Source: Candidatus Poribacteria bacterium
GTDB lineage: Bacteria; Poribacteria; WGA-4E; B28-G17
DNA length: 42,477 nucleotides
NCBI GenBank assembly: GCA_021162805.1
Contig: JAGGXZ010000183.1
Location: forward strand, 1-42,477
Reading direction: 5' to 3'
Shown here piece by piece: positions 6,768 through 18,322 of the stretch; within the stretch, counting starts at the first letter, position 1; each line of letters begins with the position of its first letter. The notes under the pieces were generated by a model. The model did not search any database. It saw nothing but the letters and a program-made list of their open reading frames with translations, and was not told where the DNA came from. The position numbers were made by a program, and so were the translations under genes.

Positions 6768-8773
6768 TATCCTCCCTCCTTTTTATGCGTTATGGCTTTT
6801 CTGGTAGCATAAGCATAGCCTGAAAGGATGTAATAGACGTTGTCCTGAGGAGTTAAACCCCATTTGTCTTTGTATCTGTCCATTAGCTCTTTCATGACAG
6901 AGAAGATCACCTCATTAAAGCCGTCGAGCTTCCCATACTGCTCGAGTTTCTCAAATATCTCATTGGACAAGCGCATTATCTTGGAAAACGGCATGCCCAT
7001 GAAGTTGATCTTGTTGAGTATAGGCTTTTTGACGTTTCCACCTCTCGATATCGAAGCTTGGGCATTCCCCACCTGTCCGACTAGATAACCCAGAAGGAAC
7101 AAAGATGATCTGGGACCGTCAAATCCCATCTCACTCAGGTATTCCTTCAATTCGGGTTCCAAGTCTTGAATTATACCGGACATTGGTTCATCCCTCCTTT
7201 TATCATTGAGCATCCCCAACCCTTCAAGATATTTCAGAAAGAGTTGGGATTGAATTAAGAACCTAATCATAGCTATGTCAGCGGAATCGCTGGGCGGCCT
7301 ATGGATGTAAGCCCCGAAGCTTTCATGGTGATACATCCTTGCCACTTCGATAAAGTTTCTCCTAAGAAAGGCTCCTGATAGAGGTTTACCGGTGAAAAGG
7401 GCATCATAGACCTCAAGCACCTCGCGGACAGATTGAGCTCCTTTTCGAACGGGAAAAAGGTACAGAATCGAATTCAGCTTTAAACTCCAAGGACCTTCAC
7501 CGAAAAACCTCTCAGCTAATTCGAAGATCTTCCCCTCTTCCTCCATCAGCAGATCAAGCCTTGAGGGCGGGACATCCTGAATTAGCTTGCTTATCTTCAC
7601 AGCTGCCTGCTGTCTGCTGGCGAAGAGGAAATTAAACATGAAGTAAGATTTGTTCTTCTCCATCTCACTGTAATTCTTAAATTCCTTCTGAAACTTTCTC
7701 CACATGTCCACGCTACTCACCTTGCCGAAAGAGCCTTGCAGATAATCAGCCCATACCTCCAGATTATCCTTGTTCAGACCGACATCCATATGAAAGGATG
7801 GTATCACGTAAACATCGCTGAGAACTAAGTTCGATTTCAGTCTGTTACCGACAAAGTTCTCCCCTGCTAGAAGAGCCATATAACAATCCTTGCAGATCCT
7901 ATATGTGCTGAGGAAACCACCCCTCTCCCCTTTCAGTCCGCTGGAGAAACCGATTTTATCGGTGATGTAAAACTTCAAGAGCTTAAACTGCTTAGTGTTC
8001 CACGTAACCACCTTCTTTCCGCCGCAGATATGGCATATCCCCTCTTCCGCATTGACGAACCTATCATCTACCAATCTCTTGAAGATGTACTTCCTGTAAT
8101 CCGGATGTTGAGCAACGAGTTCTCCATCTATTTCAAGAGTGTAAAGTGAGATATCATCCGGCTTGATATCCAACTGGGATTTAATCTCGTTTTTAAGAAC
8201 CTTAGCGACCTCTTTTACCCCTCTTTTGCGGTCTCCGCTTTCCTGAACAATTTCTTTCAGCTCCTTAGGTTCAGGCGCATCCTCAATTCCAAGGCCCTTG
8301 AGATCCCAGATATATCTGTATCTCCTGTGTTGTCCTTTAAACAGCGAGCTTTCACCATCGCCTAGATCGAAGAATATGGTATGAAAAGTTTTCTCGAGCA
8401 AGGATCTAAGCTCGCCCCCTTCCAATCTATCTTCCCTGATGAGATTCGGTATCGTTTGCGAGATGAGATATTCGACCTTATCCGTGGTTAACCGATCCTG
8501 ATCATCATTTGCCCCTGTCGGTTTCCCTACCCAGAGAAACTTAGCTCCGATCTCCAGGGAAGGTTCCGAAAATTCTGAACCGATGTCTAGTGAGAGAGAT
8601 GGCCTGTCGGTATTGATCTTCAAAATGACTACATATCCTTTTTCACCTCTGGGCTTAGAGAGATCTTCGATCAAAAACCTTGCCAGATCTAACCGAGGAT
8701 CTTCCATATCTTCGATAATAGCTTCGCCGATGGCTTTAATCCCTCTGATCACTTTCATCCCTCCCTGTTTCAA
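6767..8773 (-). CDS. cas8b: Cas8b/Csh1 large subunit of Cascade
   Basis: A 668-residue protein starting MKVIRGIKAIGEAI (after a 5-residue extension), an N-terminus like that of the TM1802/Csh1 branch of Cas8b. Around residues 240-300 it has a zinc-finger-like pair of CxxC motifs (CHICGG and CKDC), usual in this family. Known role: large Cascade subunit recognising the PAM and engaging the target with Cas5. The start is uncertain. The TTG at 8773 has GGAG at good spacing; the ATG at 8758 has GGGAGGG directly adjacent, which is too close; a GTG at 8752 would be correctly spaced for that GGGAGGG. It overlaps the cas6 3' end in every case. Confidence 0.93.
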   Translation of the reverse strand: MKQGGMKVIRGIKAIGEAIIEDMEDPRLDLARFLIEDLSKPRGEKGYVVILKINTDRPSLSLDIGSEFSEPSLEIGAKFLWVGKPTGANDDQDRLTTDKVEYLISQTIPNLIREDRLEGGELRSLLEKTFHTIFFDLGDGESSLFKGQHRRYRYIWDLKGLGIEDAPEPKELKEIVQESGDRKRGVKEVAKVLKNEIKSQLDIKPDDISLYTLEIDGELVAQHPDYRKYIFKRLVDDRFVNAEEGICHICGGKKVVTWNTKQFKLLKFYITDKIGFSSGLKGERGGFLSTYRICKDCYMALLAGENFVGNRLKSNLVLSDVYVIPSFHMDVGLNKDNLEVWADYLQGSFGKVSSVDMWRKFQKEFKNYSEMEKNKSYFMFNFLFASRQQAAVKISKLIQDVPPSRLDLLMEEEGKIFELAERFFGEGPWSLKLNSILYLFPVRKGAQSVREVLEVYDALFTGKPLSGAFLRRNFIEVARMYHHESFGAYIHRPPSDSADIAMIRFLIQSQLFLKYLEGLGMLNDKRRDEPMSGIIQDLEPELKEYLSEMGFDGPRSSLFLLGYLVGQVGNAQASISRGGNVKKPILNKINFMGMPFSKIMRLSNEIFEKLEQYGKLDGFNEVIFSVMKELMDRYKDKWGLTPQDNVYYILSGYAYATRKAITHKKEGG

Positions 8774-13605: not shown

Positions 13606-14256
13606 TCAAACGCCCTTGACGATCTTATACAGTTTGGTGGCCAAGTTGAAAAGGAATGAGGAGCTTTTGCCCCCTATCCCTGCCGATCTGAGTTTTTCGA
13701 GGAAATCCTTTGGCCCTTCGAACGGCTCCATCAGCACGTATCCACGTCCGATCTCGAAGGTCATGTGTGCATCGCTGCCCGCTCCGACGGGGATATCGTG
13801 TTCCTCAGCGAATCTCATCGCCCTTCTGTTCGACCATCTCAGCACGTTTCGGGCGTTAAATCCCTCGATGGCGTCGACAAGGGGATATATCCTCAGGAAA
13901 GCCTCCCTTTTGATCACCTCCCTGCGGAAGATATCGAACGGATGTGTGATGTAGACCAATCCGCCCTGTTCCTTTATCCTCTCTATCGTCTCCTCCGGAG
14001 AGAGATCCGGGGGAATCCTCTCCTTCAGGAACAGACCCGCCACCTCGCCCTCCTTCGTCCTGATCTCCTCCCCCACGATCACGCGTCCGGGCATCATCTC
14101 GTTGAGTTTGAGGGCGCCTTCGATCGAGTTGTGATCCAGTATTCCGACGATATCCAGTTCCCTCTCATCGCATATCCGGAGGATGTCATCGAGCTTCGTG
14201 CGACAATCCGGGGAGAACTCGGTATGAACATGCATATCGATCTTTAGCAGCTTCAT
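13606..14256 (-). CDS. PHP-domain phosphoesterase
   Basis: About 216 residues of the polymerase-and-histidinol-phosphatase fold. Metal-binding motifs are visible: DMHVHTEFSPD near the N-terminus, LDHNSIEG, GEEIRTKEGE, THPFD and AGSDAH. Known role: metal-dependent phosphoesterases acting on phosphorylated small molecules; the substrate cannot be told. Two starts are possible. The ATG at 14256 shares ATGA with the upstream gene's stop (4-base overlap), which I favour; an ATG at 14265 adds three residues. It lies 14 bases before the galactokinase fusion gene, so flavoprotein, PHP and kinase form one operon. Confidence 0.88.
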   Translation of the reverse strand: MKLLKIDMHVHTEFSPDCRTKLDDILRICDERELDIVGILDHNSIEGALKLNEMMPGRVIVGEEIRTKEGEVAGLFLKERIPPDLSPEETIERIKEQGGLVYITHPFDIFRREVIKREAFLRIYPLVDAIEGFNARNVLRWSNRRAMRFAEEHDIPVGAGSDAHMTFEIGRGYVLMEPFEGPKDFLEKLRSAGIGGKSSSFLFNLATKLYKIVKGV

Positions 14257-15443
14257 CCGAACCATCCGAATCTGGCCAGATGTCTCAGCTCAAGGAGGAG
14301 TCTGGGATCGTTCAGCAGCACGGTCTTGAAGATCTGGAAGACGGTCAGCTCTCCCCCCGGTATCTTCGAGAGGGCATGGGCGCATCTGTCCAGGGTTTCA
14401 TCGCTGAACCTGAGCACCCCCTCCCGCACCCTGCGGAGGTGTTTGAAGGTCCTGCCGACCTCCCGGTCCCACCTTTCGGGATACCGGCTGAGGAACCGCT
14501 CTGACGTATCCCCCGCCTTGATCGCCTCGACCGCCACCTCTCCCGCTATTCGGCCGGCTATCATGGCGTTGATTATCCCGCCTCCGGAGAGGGGATCGTT
14601 TTGATGGGCGGCATCTCCGGCTATCATGATCCCGTTCGCGACGATCTTTGGGAGCGTTCCGTCTATGGGGACGCTTCCGACGACGAGGGAGAGTATCGAT
14701 CCGTTTGGGAATCTGTCCCTGACGAATCTGTTCAGATAATCCAGGGCCAGCCTTCCATCTCCGCCGGAGATCGTCCCGCCGATTCCCACCCCTACGTTTG
14801 CCGTTCGATCGCCTTTGGGGAAGACCCAGGCATATCCCCTCGGCGCGAGCTCATGTCCCAGATAGAAGTCGCAGAACTCCGGCTCGATCTCCACGTTAGC
14901 CATCAGGTATTGGGCGCAGACGTCTATCTCATCGATCCTAAGGGCGGTGTCCAATCCGGCCCATCTTCCCACCTGTGACTCGACCCCGTCGGCGGCTATA
15001 ACGAGATCGGATCGAACCTCGTAGATCCTGCCCAGATGTTTGAAGCGCACGCCCCTGACGAAGTCCTCCTCCTTTATCACGTCGAATACCTGAGCCTTGA
15101 CGAGCACCTCGGCTCCCGCCTCAACGGCCATCTGGGCGAGATATCTATCGAAGATTTTCCTCTCCAGGACCACCCCTGCTCCGGGCTGTTCCACCACGAC
15201 CGGGGTGCCGTCGGGCGAGAAGATCCTGCCGCCGTTTATCCACGCGGATATCCACCTGGGATCGGGCTTCACGAACCGGCTGAGCTCTCCAAGCGATACC
15301 GCCTCGGCACACCTGACGGGCGAGCCGATCTCCTGACGCTTTTCAAGCAGCAGCACCGAGAGACCTTCCCCTGCGATGACCTTAGCGGCGGTCGAACCGG
15401 CCGGCCCCGCTCCGACCACCACAGCGTCGTATCTCCCCTTCAA
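14253..15443 (-). CDS. Geranylgeranyl-reductase-family flavoprotein
   Basis: A 396-residue FAD protein. The N-terminal dinucleotide fold is YDAVVVGAGPAGSTAAKVIA, followed by LLLEKRQEIGSPVRCAEA, a Cys-containing signature of the family; the second FAD motif is IMIAGDAAHQNDPLSGGGI. Known role: reduction of isoprenoid double bonds in membrane lipids, quinones or tetrapyrrole side chains. The frame opens at an ATG at 15509, but that gives a 22-residue extension foreign to the family. A TTG at 15443 gives MKGRYDAVVVGAG and has a perfect GGAGG (15451-15455) 7 bases before it, so I use it. The discarded extension lies in the cassette boundary region. Confidence 0.88.
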   Translation of the reverse strand: MKGRYDAVVVGAGPAGSTAAKVIAGEGLSVLLLEKRQEIGSPVRCAEAVSLGELSRFVKPDPRWISAWINGGRIFSPDGTPVVVEQPGAGVVLERKIFDRYLAQMAVEAGAEVLVKAQVFDVIKEEDFVRGVRFKHLGRIYEVRSDLVIAADGVESQVGRWAGLDTALRIDEIDVCAQYLMANVEIEPEFCDFYLGHELAPRGYAWVFPKGDRTANVGVGIGGTISGGDGRLALDYLNRFVRDRFPNGSILSLVVGSVPIDGTLPKIVANGIMIAGDAAHQNDPLSGGGIINAMIAGRIAGEVAVEAIKAGDTSERFLSRYPERWDREVGRTFKHLRRVREGVLRFSDETLDRCAHALSKIPGGELTVFQIFKTVLLNDPRLLLELRHLARFGWFG

Positions 15444-15482
15444 CGTCTTTCCTCCGAAATGGCATTTATCGACGCGCATGCT

Positions 15483-15500
15483 GTTATATGAAGTGGCGGT
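15483..15500. repeat. Cassette boundary: R-box inverted repeat downstream of the methyltransferase gene
   Basis: The plus-strand sequence GTTATATGAAGTGGCGGT here matches, as an inverted copy, GTTATATGAAATGACGGT on the minus strand at 16325-16342 (16 of 18). In cassette orientation it reads ATATAAC, the exact complement of the GTTATAT box before the methyltransferase gene. That is what an integron cassette requires of its two ends. A full attC beyond this box, towards 15443, is not recognisable, so this end seems truncated. Confidence 0.5.
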
Positions 15501-15505
15501 TTCTT

Positions 15506-16321
15506 TCATTTTGTAGCTATATTAAATATATCTCCCCCTTTCCCAATACATTCAACCTTTTTGAACCCTACTTCCTTCAATATTTTAACATAGTCCTGAA
15601 ATGTCCATTTGATTCTGGGATTCATTATAAAAGCTATTTCCGCCCTCATAATACCTTGTTTTTCAATAAGGTAGATGCGTTTTTCAAGGATACCTTCGGC
15701 GGTCTTTTCAGCAACTTCAATGCTTGTCACCCTCATACCATCCTTTTCATAGGGGGGAAGGATTACCAATTTCTCCCGATTTTCCCACTCCCTTTCGATT
15801 AGATTCTTTAAACCCGATCTTGTCGTCAATTCGGGATTAAGACTACCGAATATGAATTTACCATCATAATTAAGAACGGAATAAATACCTGCAGCTGAGG
15901 CTTTTAGAGTCTCATAGGTTTCTATCTCGTCGAAATAATCGCTAAACACACAATCATAGGTGCGGCCACATTTAAGTCCCAACTCCTCCCAGCGGGAGTG
16001 AAAGAACCGAATGTTAACACCTCTTTCTTTTGCAAGCTGCGGGGCATATCTAACGGCAATCGCGCTGCCGTCGGAGCCTTCAACTTCATATCCCTTTTCG
16101 GCGATAAGCACCGTCTTAAACCCAAGCCCACATGAGCAATCTAACACGGATTTAACTTTTAACAGGGTGAGCAGTGAAAATAACGGTTTCAAACCTTTTC
16201 GTATCTCATTCCAATATTCCGATTCCCATAACTCTCTTGTAAACCAGGACCACTTCCAAACGATATTCCAGGACTCCTCTTCACTTGAAGGAATTTTAAC
16301 TTTCACCTTCATCTTCTTCAT
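15506..16321 (-). CDS. SAM-dependent class I methyltransferase
   Basis: A 271-residue protein. Methyltransferase motif I is VLDCSCGLGFKTVLIA (around 59-74), followed by acidic post-I VEGSDGSAIAV. The middle motif YDCVFSDYFDEI and a late ILKEVGFKKVECIGKGGD complete the Rossmann fold. The substrate is unknown; no DNA-methyltransferase DPPY/NPPY motif is visible. Its DNA is clearly more AT-rich than the neighbours and it does not share function with the surrounding operons. The ATG lies 15 bases after the GTTATAT box of the attC at 16336-16417, the spacing expected for an integron cassette gene. Confidence 0.85.
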   Translation of the reverse strand: MKKMKVKVKIPSSEEESWNIVWKWSWFTRELWESEYWNEIRKGLKPLFSLLTLLKVKSVLDCSCGLGFKTVLIAEKGYEVEGSDGSAIAVRYAPQLAKERGVNIRFFHSRWEELGLKCGRTYDCVFSDYFDEIETYETLKASAAGIYSVLNYDGKFIFGSLNPELTTRSGLKNLIEREWENREKLVILPPYEKDGMRVTSIEVAEKTAEGILEKRIYLIEKQGIMRAEIAFIMNPRIKWTFQDYVKILKEVGFKKVECIGKGGDIFNIATK

Positions 16322-16335
16322 TTCACCGTCATTTC

Positions 16336-16417
16336 ATATAACGTTTTGCTGGCATACGAGGTTCGGCTTTACCGAATTTGGGTGGAGCGAAGCGTGGTCG
16401 TATATCCGCTGTTAGGC
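16336..16417 (-). other. Probable integron attC recombination site
   Basis: Read on the minus strand, the 82-base element begins GCCTAAC (RYYYAAC consensus) and ends GTTATAT (GTTRRRY with one deviation). Inside, GCGGATATACGA pairs imperfectly with TCGTATGCCAGC, the L boxes, with an unpaired AAAAC-side spacer. The centre holds a TTCGG-TAAAG-CCGAA hairpin. This is the architecture of attC: imperfect stem, extrahelical bases and variable terminal structure. GCCTAAC is the complement of GTTAGGC at the upstream boundary of the protease gene, as required for one cassette. The protease stop codon lies inside the element. Confidence 0.6.
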
Positions 16418-16809
16418 GACGTTGCCATTAAAACTTCCACCATTGGCATCTCTGGTGATCTTGGATTAGGAATAACCTTCCTTGTGCTCGGATCAACTAT
16501 GAGGTCTAACTGCTCAAGTATTATCTGACCTACAAGAGGTTGAGCACCTTCTGGTTCTGCCAGAACATTGAATTCGCCCGCTCTACCACACATTTCCACA
16601 GTTACAATACCATAAATTGATTTGATTTCCGTTTTGTTGTTCGCATATCTTACTTTCACTTCCCTCATCTTTTTTAAATGAAGTTCATCGATAGCATTTT
16701 GAGGTAAAACAAGCATAGTTGCTCCTGTATCAATAACGGCCTCGGTCTCGATTGCTCTTTCGGGCTCAAAGACATTTATGACCTTTATTTTCTCGACCAC
16801 TTTTCCCAT
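16369..16809 (-). CDS. Retropepsin-like clan AA aspartic protease
   Basis: A 146-residue protein. The active-site motif AVIDTGATMLVLP (about residues 23-35) is the DTGA of retroviral-type aspartic proteases, which act as homodimers. The later GQIILEQLDLIVDP corresponds to the family's hydrophobic ILG/LLE segment. Known relatives are small soluble bacterial proteins of mostly unknown role. The ATG at 16809 has a perfect GGAGG 7 bases upstream (16817-16821), so the longer frame to 16848 is not used. The last roughly 20 residues (MATSPNSGYTTTLRSTQIR) are encoded by the attC element and are probably incidental. Confidence 0.82.
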   Translation of the reverse strand: MGKVVEKIKVINVFEPERAIETEAVIDTGATMLVLPQNAIDELHLKKMREVKVRYANNKTEIKSIYGIVTVEMCGRAGEFNVLAEPEGAQPLVGQIILEQLDLIVDPSTRKVIPNPRSPEMPMVEVLMATSPNSGYTTTLRSTQIR

Positions 16810-16861
16810 TTTAATTCCTCCTACCCATGAATTGTGATCATAAAGCATTTTTTGACCTCTC

Positions 16862-16877
16862 TGCGATGTCGCCTAAC
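16862..16877. repeat. Cassette boundary: R-box upstream of the protease gene
   Basis: On the minus strand GTTAGGC starts at 16877 and continues GACATCGC. The plus strand at 16411 reads GTTAGGCGACGTTGC. The two form an inverted repeat of about 14 bases with two mismatches flanking the protease gene. GTTAGGC is a typical GTTRRRY integron core site. The 57 bases between it and the response regulator stop (16934) contain no attC or attI that I can recognise. Confidence 0.5.
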
Positions 16878-16933: not shown

Positions 16934-18322
16934 CTAGCTCAGATCCTCCAATCCGTACTGCTTGATCTTCCGATAGAGCGTCCTGAGGCCGATCTTGAGG
17001 ATATTGGCCGCCTTGGTCTTATTGCCTCCCGTTTCTATCAGCGTTCGCTTTATCGCCTCACGCTCTATATCCTCCATAGACATGCCCACGCGGATGTCGA
17101 TCCTGTCCGATTCATCCTTATCAGCGGGCGTCGATCCCCTGATCTCCTCGGGCAGATCCTTGAGTTCGATCGTATCCGATGTGGCCGTGATGATGACGCT
17201 TTCGATCACATTTCTGAGCTGCCTCACGTTGCCGGGCCAGCTATAGCTTATCAGCTTATCCATAGCCTCGCGGGAGATCTTGATCGGGGACCTGTTGTTC
17301 TGTTTACAGATCTCCTCGATGAAGTGCTGGACCAGGAGCGGGATATCCTCCCGTCTTTCGCGCAGCGGCGGCACCTTGATCGTGAAGACCTTCAGCCTAT
17401 AGTAGAGATCCTCCCTGAACTTCCCCTCCCTTACGGCCTCCTCCAGATCTCGGTTGGTCGATGAGATGATACGCACGTCCACCTGTATGGGTTTGCTGGC
17501 GCCGACCCTCCAGAACTCGCGGGTCTCTATAGCTCTGAGCAGTTTCGCCTGCACCTCCGGGCTCATCTCGCCTATCTCATCCAGCAGCAACGTTCCGCCG
17601 TCGGCGAGCTCGAAATATCCGGTCCGCTGTCTGACGGCTCCCGTGAAAGCGCCCTTTTCGTGGCCGAAGAGCTCGCTTTCGAGCAGATCCTTCGGTATGG
17701 CGGCGCAGTTGACGGCGATAAAGGGTTTGTCCCTGCGGGGGCTGTTCTGATGGATGGCCCTGGCGATGACCTCTTTGCCCGTGCCGGTTTCACCTATGAT
17801 CAGCACGTTCGCCTTTGTCGGGGCGACCCTCCTTATCTGACGGAAGATCTCCTGCATCTGGGGGCTTCTGCCGATGATGTTTTCAAACCTGTATTTGCGC
17901 TCTATCTGTTCCTTAAGGCGGAGGTTTTCAAGCTCCAGCTCCCGCTTCTCGATCGCCCTACTGGCGGTCTGTCTCAGGATATTGATATCAACGGGCTTTT
18001 GAAGGAAGGTGAAAGCTCCGCTCTGCATCGCCTCGACGGCCCCCTCCACGGTTCCATATCCGGTCAGCACGATCACCTCGACATAGGGTATCTCCTCCTT
18101 CGCCTTTTTCAATATCTCCATCCCGTCCAGATCGGGCAGTTTCAGATCGGTAACCACCAGATCGAAGTCCTCAGAATTGATTATCTTAAGTGCCGTTTTA
18201 CCGGATCGCGCCTTGACGATCTCATATCCCTCCCTCTCAAGCGCCTCGGCTATCACCTCCAGATCGGAGGGGTCATCGTCCACTATGAGAATACGTCTTT
18301 GCCTCTCGTCCAATTTGATCAC
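16934..18322 (-). CDS. NtrC-family sigma-54-dependent response regulator
   Basis: A 462-residue protein with three domains. The receiver (1-120) has acidic pocket VDDD, phospho-acceptor Asp59 (VTDLKLPD) and Lys109. The AAA+ domain (about 147-380) has Walker A GETGTGKE (177-184), the sigma-54-contacting GAFTGA (224-229) and Walker B LLLDEIGEM. A C-terminal Fis-type helix-turn-helix (NKTKAANILKIGLRTLYRKI, about 430-450) binds DNA. Known role: ATP-driven opening of sigma-54 promoters after phosphorylation. GTG start overlaps the kinase stop by 4 bases (GTGA), so kinase and regulator are a coupled pair. A TTG three codons later, behind GAGGTGATC, is an alternative start. Confidence 0.95.
   Translation of the reverse strand: MIKLDERQRRILIVDDDPSDLEVIAEALEREGYEIVKARSGKTALKIINSEDFDLVVTDLKLPDLDGMEILKKAKEEIPYVEVIVLTGYGTVEGAVEAMQSGAFTFLQKPVDINILRQTASRAIEKRELELENLRLKEQIERKYRFENIIGRSPQMQEIFRQIRRVAPTKANVLIIGETGTGKEVIARAIHQNSPRRDKPFIAVNCAAIPKDLLESELFGHEKGAFTGAVRQRTGYFELADGGTLLLDEIGEMSPEVQAKLLRAIETREFWRVGASKPIQVDVRIISSTNRDLEEAVREGKFREDLYYRLKVFTIKVPPLRERREDIPLLVQHFIEEICKQNNRSPIKISREAMDKLISYSWPGNVRQLRNVIESVIITATSDTIELKDLPEEIRGSTPADKDESDRIDIRVGMSMEDIEREAIKRTLIETGGNKTKAANILKIGLRTLYRKIKQYGLEDLS

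Follow-up and report, generated by a model that had tools for sequence, protein, structure and literature searches.

Cassette genes between a regulator and a reductase gene

The stretch of DNA analysed here in full (the window, 42,477 nucleotides) belongs to a draft metagenome-assembled genome (MAG; 4.35 Mb, 232 contigs, 95% complete) of an uncultured Poribacterium, whose closest named relatives are MAGs of Candidatus Poribacteria, and carries genes for an aspartyl protease and a methyltransferase between those for a response regulator and a reductase (Table 1). The protease start was set at an ATG placed behind AGGAGG; the score for TIGR03698 on this protein fell under the cut-off, and the final codons of the gene lie inside an attC site. 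As originally predicted, both genes are more AT-rich than their surroundings, with a GC content of 41% as against 55% and 61% in the flanking genes. Proteases of this family occur in 43 of 83 Poribacterial genomes, often in multiple copies, and the three chromosomal homologues that were tested have no paired ends. For the methyltransferase, no relative above 28% identity was found in the other 82 of these 83 genomes, nor any relative on viral contigs. Besides the window gene, clan AA retropepsin-like proteases recur in Poribacterial cassettes at L015 482-913 and L179 about 7740-8000.

Table 1. Cassette features and neighbouring genes, listed in minus-strand order (positions are those of the window).
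Feature	Positions	Strand	Basis
Upstream neighbour: sigma-54-dependent response regulator	16934..18322	(-)	Pfam; 78% identical in G001
Protease cassette start (left insertion edge), with G^TTAGGC box plus extended R arm	16863..16877	(-)	13 of the first 15 bases pair with 16411-16425
Cassette gene 1: clan AA (retropepsin-like) aspartyl protease, DTGA motif	16369..16809	(-)	Pfam gag-asp_proteas, 29.5 bits
Complete attC of the protease cassette	16336..16417	(-)	Covariance model R3; blastn to the C191 copy; covariation
Methyltransferase cassette start, with G^TTATAT box plus extended R arm	16325..16342	(-)	16/18 bases pair with 15483-15500
Cassette gene 2: SAM-dependent methyltransferase	15506..16321	(-)	Pfam Methyltransf_25, 39.3 bits
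Methyltransferase cassette end, R'' box ATATAAC; remainder of attC missing	15483..15500	(-)	Sequence, pairing
Downstream neighbour: geranylgeranyl reductase family protein	14253..15445	(-)	Pfam; 84% identity with G001 across 179 aa

Each gene had been predicted to be bounded by paired 7-base boxes, and these were found in place: on the plus strand, a GTTAGGC beginning at 16411 is complementary to the GCCTAAC ending at 16877, and a GTTATAT beginning at 15483 to the ATATAAC ending at 16342. In both cassettes the 5' box is complementary to the cassette's own R'' box at 7/7 bases, again as predicted, and the agreement between the start and the reverse complement of the end does run well past the box, over 15-18 bases (Table 1). 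These two are the sole inverted pairs in the whole window with 7/7 box bases and at least 13/18 overall, and dinucleotide shuffles of the window (n = 200) gave a mean of 0.115 such pairs, with two or more in 3/200. The sequence behind the last R'' forms no attC, so this site, which had been described as truncated, has been lost, and because it is absent the right edge of the insertion is not proved.

Between the regulator gene and the pair lie 56 bases, and 37 bases separate the pair from the likely start of the reductase gene, probably a TTG behind GGAGG. In G001, a sister genome from the same family as the host, the regulator gene is followed by a different small gene on the same strand (L159 3067-3474) that has no Pfam match; thus, the junction varies between relatives.

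A Poribacterial attC family with long paired ends

The 82-base attC-like element that had been noticed between the two genes comprises an R'' box (16411-16417), L'' and L' arms of 11 bases each, a central hairpin and an R' box (16336-16342), the last being the first bases of the methyltransferase cassette. On the minus strand it reads, from 16417 to 16336, GCCTAAC-A-GCGGATATACG ... CGTATGCCAGC-AAAAC-GTTATAT, and its L stem contains two mismatched pairs, in agreement with the imperfect L-box pairing of the original prediction. A copy on another contig of the same genome (C191) is 85% identical by blastn (E 1.7e-22), and our own covariance model R3, built from 11 sites with the window excluded, matched this site on the minus strand with 68.9 bits (E 1.4e-15, approximate owing to a short calibration) and nothing else in the window. 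No Rfam match was found at the element. The suggested fold of these 82 bases alone, run as plain DNA, did not give the attC shape, since each of its R boxes comes from a different cassette; the shape was recovered in folding once the cassette's own start was joined on, as in the excised circle.

Other contigs of the host genome bear more attCs of this type, in arrays or as solitary cassettes (C28, C115, C123 and C191); C9, C100, C119 and C178, cited below, are also host contigs. C191 holds a head-to-tail array of four attCs, and the cassettes between the sites encode an aspartyl protease, a PIN-domain protein and its small partner, and an FMN reductase, followed by a truncated last cassette. 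A first covariance model (five sites, from the window and C191) led to further sites in C115, C28 and the genome G005, with no solid match in the rest of the 83-genome phylum scan; a weak match in G084 (E 0.32) was not regained with R3 and was dropped. Searching 26 chosen genomes with R3 added C123, two more G005 sites and, in G059 (same phylum as the host, different class), a contig with three attCs and a single site. The MAG SpSt-970 (G114) gave matches identical to those of G059, and the two were treated as one genome. The family is known from three Poribacterial genomes, namely the host, G005 and G059. The last cassettes of the C191, C28 and G005 contigs look truncated, their ends having been sought by pairing and not found. 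Binning errors are possible for small contigs; the window, C115 and C123 carry cassettes flanked by chromosomal genes.

Between the R boxes, the inverted L boxes are kept as structure while their sequence varies. Across 12 sites, both sides vary in 9 of the 11 pairs of the L stem, and 94.7% of cells are paired, a level reached in 0/500 shuffles. For the structure as a whole, the share of paired cells is 88%; shuffles give 70%, and sliding the partner by one column leaves about 30-33%. This 12-site alignment was fitted to the structure, but the same L stem can also be seen when the first five sites are aligned with plain MAFFT. Pairing in the R stem is lower (77%), as expected because R'' and R' come from neighbouring cassettes.

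The extension of complementarity beyond 7 bases had been called unusual. The extension itself is not: allowing up to two mismatches, control cassettes are paired over 6-14 bases, with class 1 cassettes reaching 10-14. Its length is moderately unusual, as seven family cassettes are paired over 15-20 bases, beyond any control used. At positions 8-18, start and reverse complement of end agree at 3-10 of 11 positions in 12 family cassettes (mean 7.2) and at 3-7 of 11 in nine control cassettes (mean 4.9), a small set that includes three cassettes of plasmid R46 (two-sided p 0.023; p 0.049 with the first nine family cassettes only); a tenth control, OXA-2, agrees at 4. When ends were exchanged among the first nine cassettes, the observed match sum had a permutation p of 5e-5, and thus each start fits its own end. 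Long paired ends are the rule in this family; the idea that they are unique to the host genome was rejected, as they are partly common to G005 and G059.

One mispair within these arms is fixed. At position 11, the start has A and the reverse complement of the end has G in 12/12 cassettes with both ends known, a combination seen in 0/9 controls; the top strand thereby carries an A.C mispair and the bottom strand a T.G wobble. A bottom-strand wobble bias of arm mismatches was set aside as separate evidence, being largely an effect of position 11.

No extra-helical base was found: the 11-bp L stem of the family is without any single unpaired base, and we therefore file the sites as a variant of attC. 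Judged by their sequences, the sites form a distinct Poribacterial subfamily that lacks such bases. Bouvier et al. (PMC2727003) describe the extra-helical G of attC as absolutely conserved and as required for strand choice, and they find that the spacer is still able to impose polarity where extra-helical bases are missing. Here the central spacer is unpaired and one-sided, measuring 1 nt towards R'' against about 5 nt towards R', and the family may be a natural case of spacer-imposed polarity. Circles of six cassettes folded in silico were more stable as the bottom strand than as the top strand by 0.7-8.8 kcal/mol (24.4 vs 15.6 kcal/mol for the window circle). A natural family of this kind, its stems backed by compensatory changes and another asymmetry fixed at one position, would make the rule of strand choice directly testable.

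Integrase relics and candidate recombinases

The original prediction placed the cassettes in the chromosome with no integrase in cis, and indeed neither intI nor attI was found in the window flanks. No intI scored above the family cut-off in the assembled host genome, where all matches are relics or Xer-like. A search for IntI in the same genome did recover recognisable intI genes, but these lack the catalytic domain. The two relics (C119, L016 5904-6418; C178, L017 5771-6330) are 78% identical over 560 bases and have one internal deletion in common; the reading frame ends with RDGKG or RDDRG, beyond which the sequence runs directly to the terminal VRSPLD motif. They possibly represent a non-autonomous element whose spread followed the deletion. 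Each lies near a canonical-looking attC and toxin-antitoxin-like genes. Among 85 Poribacteria, intact intI was found in G004 (with one in-frame TGA) and G061.

C9 and C100 carry C-terminal remnants of another tyrosine recombinase. Over 53 aa the C9 remnant shares 66% identity with an intact G005 gene, which is of XerA type by NCBIfam NF040815 (above cut-off). On C100 (L261 11948), a family cassette start, GAG^TTAGGCGAAAACGGGC, follows within about 100 bases of the XerA-like remnant, and the contig ends inside that cassette.

These remnants raise the alternative of a separate integron-like system, in which a tyrosine recombinase of XerA-like type, lacking the extra domain specific to IntI, moves the cassettes. 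Its case consists of the cassette start on C100, the relation of the C9 remnant to an intact gene in a genome with these attCs, the failure of R3 to match the canonical-looking attCs near true intI relics, and the lack of attCs of this family (by R3) in both genomes with intact intI. On the other hand, C100 is the one physical link and stands at the end of a contig; the array of three attCs in G059 is accompanied by only a distant relative (37%) of the enzyme; G061 has a damaged copy of it and no such attC; and MAGs are incomplete. We consider this alternative unlikely. The fuller proposal of a separate Poribacterial capture system, in which cassettes with long sequence-conserved R arms and with attCs devoid of extra-helical bases would be served by a XerA-like mover lacking the IntI-specific domain, and the strand chosen via the one-sided bulge together with the position-11 mispair, is also unlikely. 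The cognate enzyme would be either IntI or the XerA-like enzyme, and the evidence leaves both as candidates.

Insertion between chromosomal genes and known systems

We are highly confident that two integron-type cassettes were inserted between chromosomal genes by site-specific recombination and later stranded. The protease cassette and then, in minus-strand direction, the methyltransferase cassette would have been placed between the regulator and reductase genes by recombination at G^TT. In the free circle, the end and start of a cassette would come to lie side by side, allowing the bottom strand to fold into a hairpin with a long R arm, a one-sided bulge beside the cut and the 11-bp L stem; a tyrosine recombinase would cut this folded strand and join it to attI or to a chromosomal site of the G^WT type. 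Later loss of the last attC and decay of the recognisable intI genes would have left the pair stranded, presumably immobile at present and probably read with the neighbouring genes. Against the cassette reading stand the absence of an extra-helical base, of the last attC, of an empty site in a relative and of any active integrase seen, as well as the draft state of the MAG; with these weighed, our overall confidence in it is still high.

The insertion was likely at a secondary site, as had been proposed; an empty site, sought as an adjacency of regulator and reductase genes in G001 and in all loci retrieved, was not found. C115 carries cassettes between chromosomal genes, with GNAT-like and RelBE-like content as read from translation. 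C123 has a solitary cassette with its own attC, and its start was located from the cassette end alone (15/18 agree; runner-up 9). G^WT is the consensus for chromosomal target sites, and the flanks of the C123 cassette, joined as CCACTG^ATAAAGG, fit it.

Two other explanations fare far worse. It is very improbable that each gene represents its own small transposon-like element, framed by terminal inverted repeats and with no relation to integrons: single genes are indeed flanked by long inverted repeats, but these match within each gene and differ between genes, the neighbours are joined by a structured attC and stand in head-to-tail arrays elsewhere, and no target duplication or transposase was seen. 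That the genes are old residents of the place, bounded by boxes through chance, is scarcely credible despite the small same-strand gene directly behind the regulator in G001, as that gene is without a Pfam match, the methyltransferase is missing from other genomes, shuffles rarely yield two such box pairs and an independent model matches the attC.

Like cassettes of class 1 integrons and VCR cassettes, those described here have G^TT boxes, a 5' box complementary to their own R'', L boxes, a variable central part, and one gene or toxin pair each, with the gene ending in attC. Unlike them, the Poribacterial sites have no extra-helical base and have spacers of 1 and about 5 nt, in most cassettes the conserved R arm pairs along 15-20 bases, and the position-11 mispair is fixed; the family model gave no match on class 1 attCs. 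Chromosomal attG sites were reportedly described by Loot and colleagues in 2024, cited as reference 57 in PMC12901181. The likeness to CALIN elements and single attG cassettes lies in attCs without an integrase in cis, in single insertions between chromosomal genes and in the G^WT-like junction of C123, whereas the window has one intact attC and has lost its right end. Under the default of IntegronFinder 2, a CALIN has at least two attC sites without intI (PMC9024848). The predicted CALIN-type pair therefore holds as attC without integrase but, with one complete attC, falls below that default; C191, with four attCs, would qualify. Archaeal integrons (PMC9668308) are similarly borne by MAGs and mostly without IntI, and their attI lies just downstream of the recombinase gene, an arrangement also suggested by the C100 remnant; archaeal IntIs, however, have the IntI-specific extra domain, whereas that remnant is XerA-like.

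No report of integrons in Poribacteria was found in the open papers searched; three of these contain both words, to judge by their counts in passing. The window adds this phylum to the cassette hosts and would illustrate how cassettes settle between chromosomal genes once the integrase is gone. At the far end of the C115 cassettes, in the place of a third (L176 about 7150-7060), there is a remnant of 44 bases that includes a perfect inverted repeat of 14 bases; it appears to be an emptied cassette that has neither a gene nor an R'' box.
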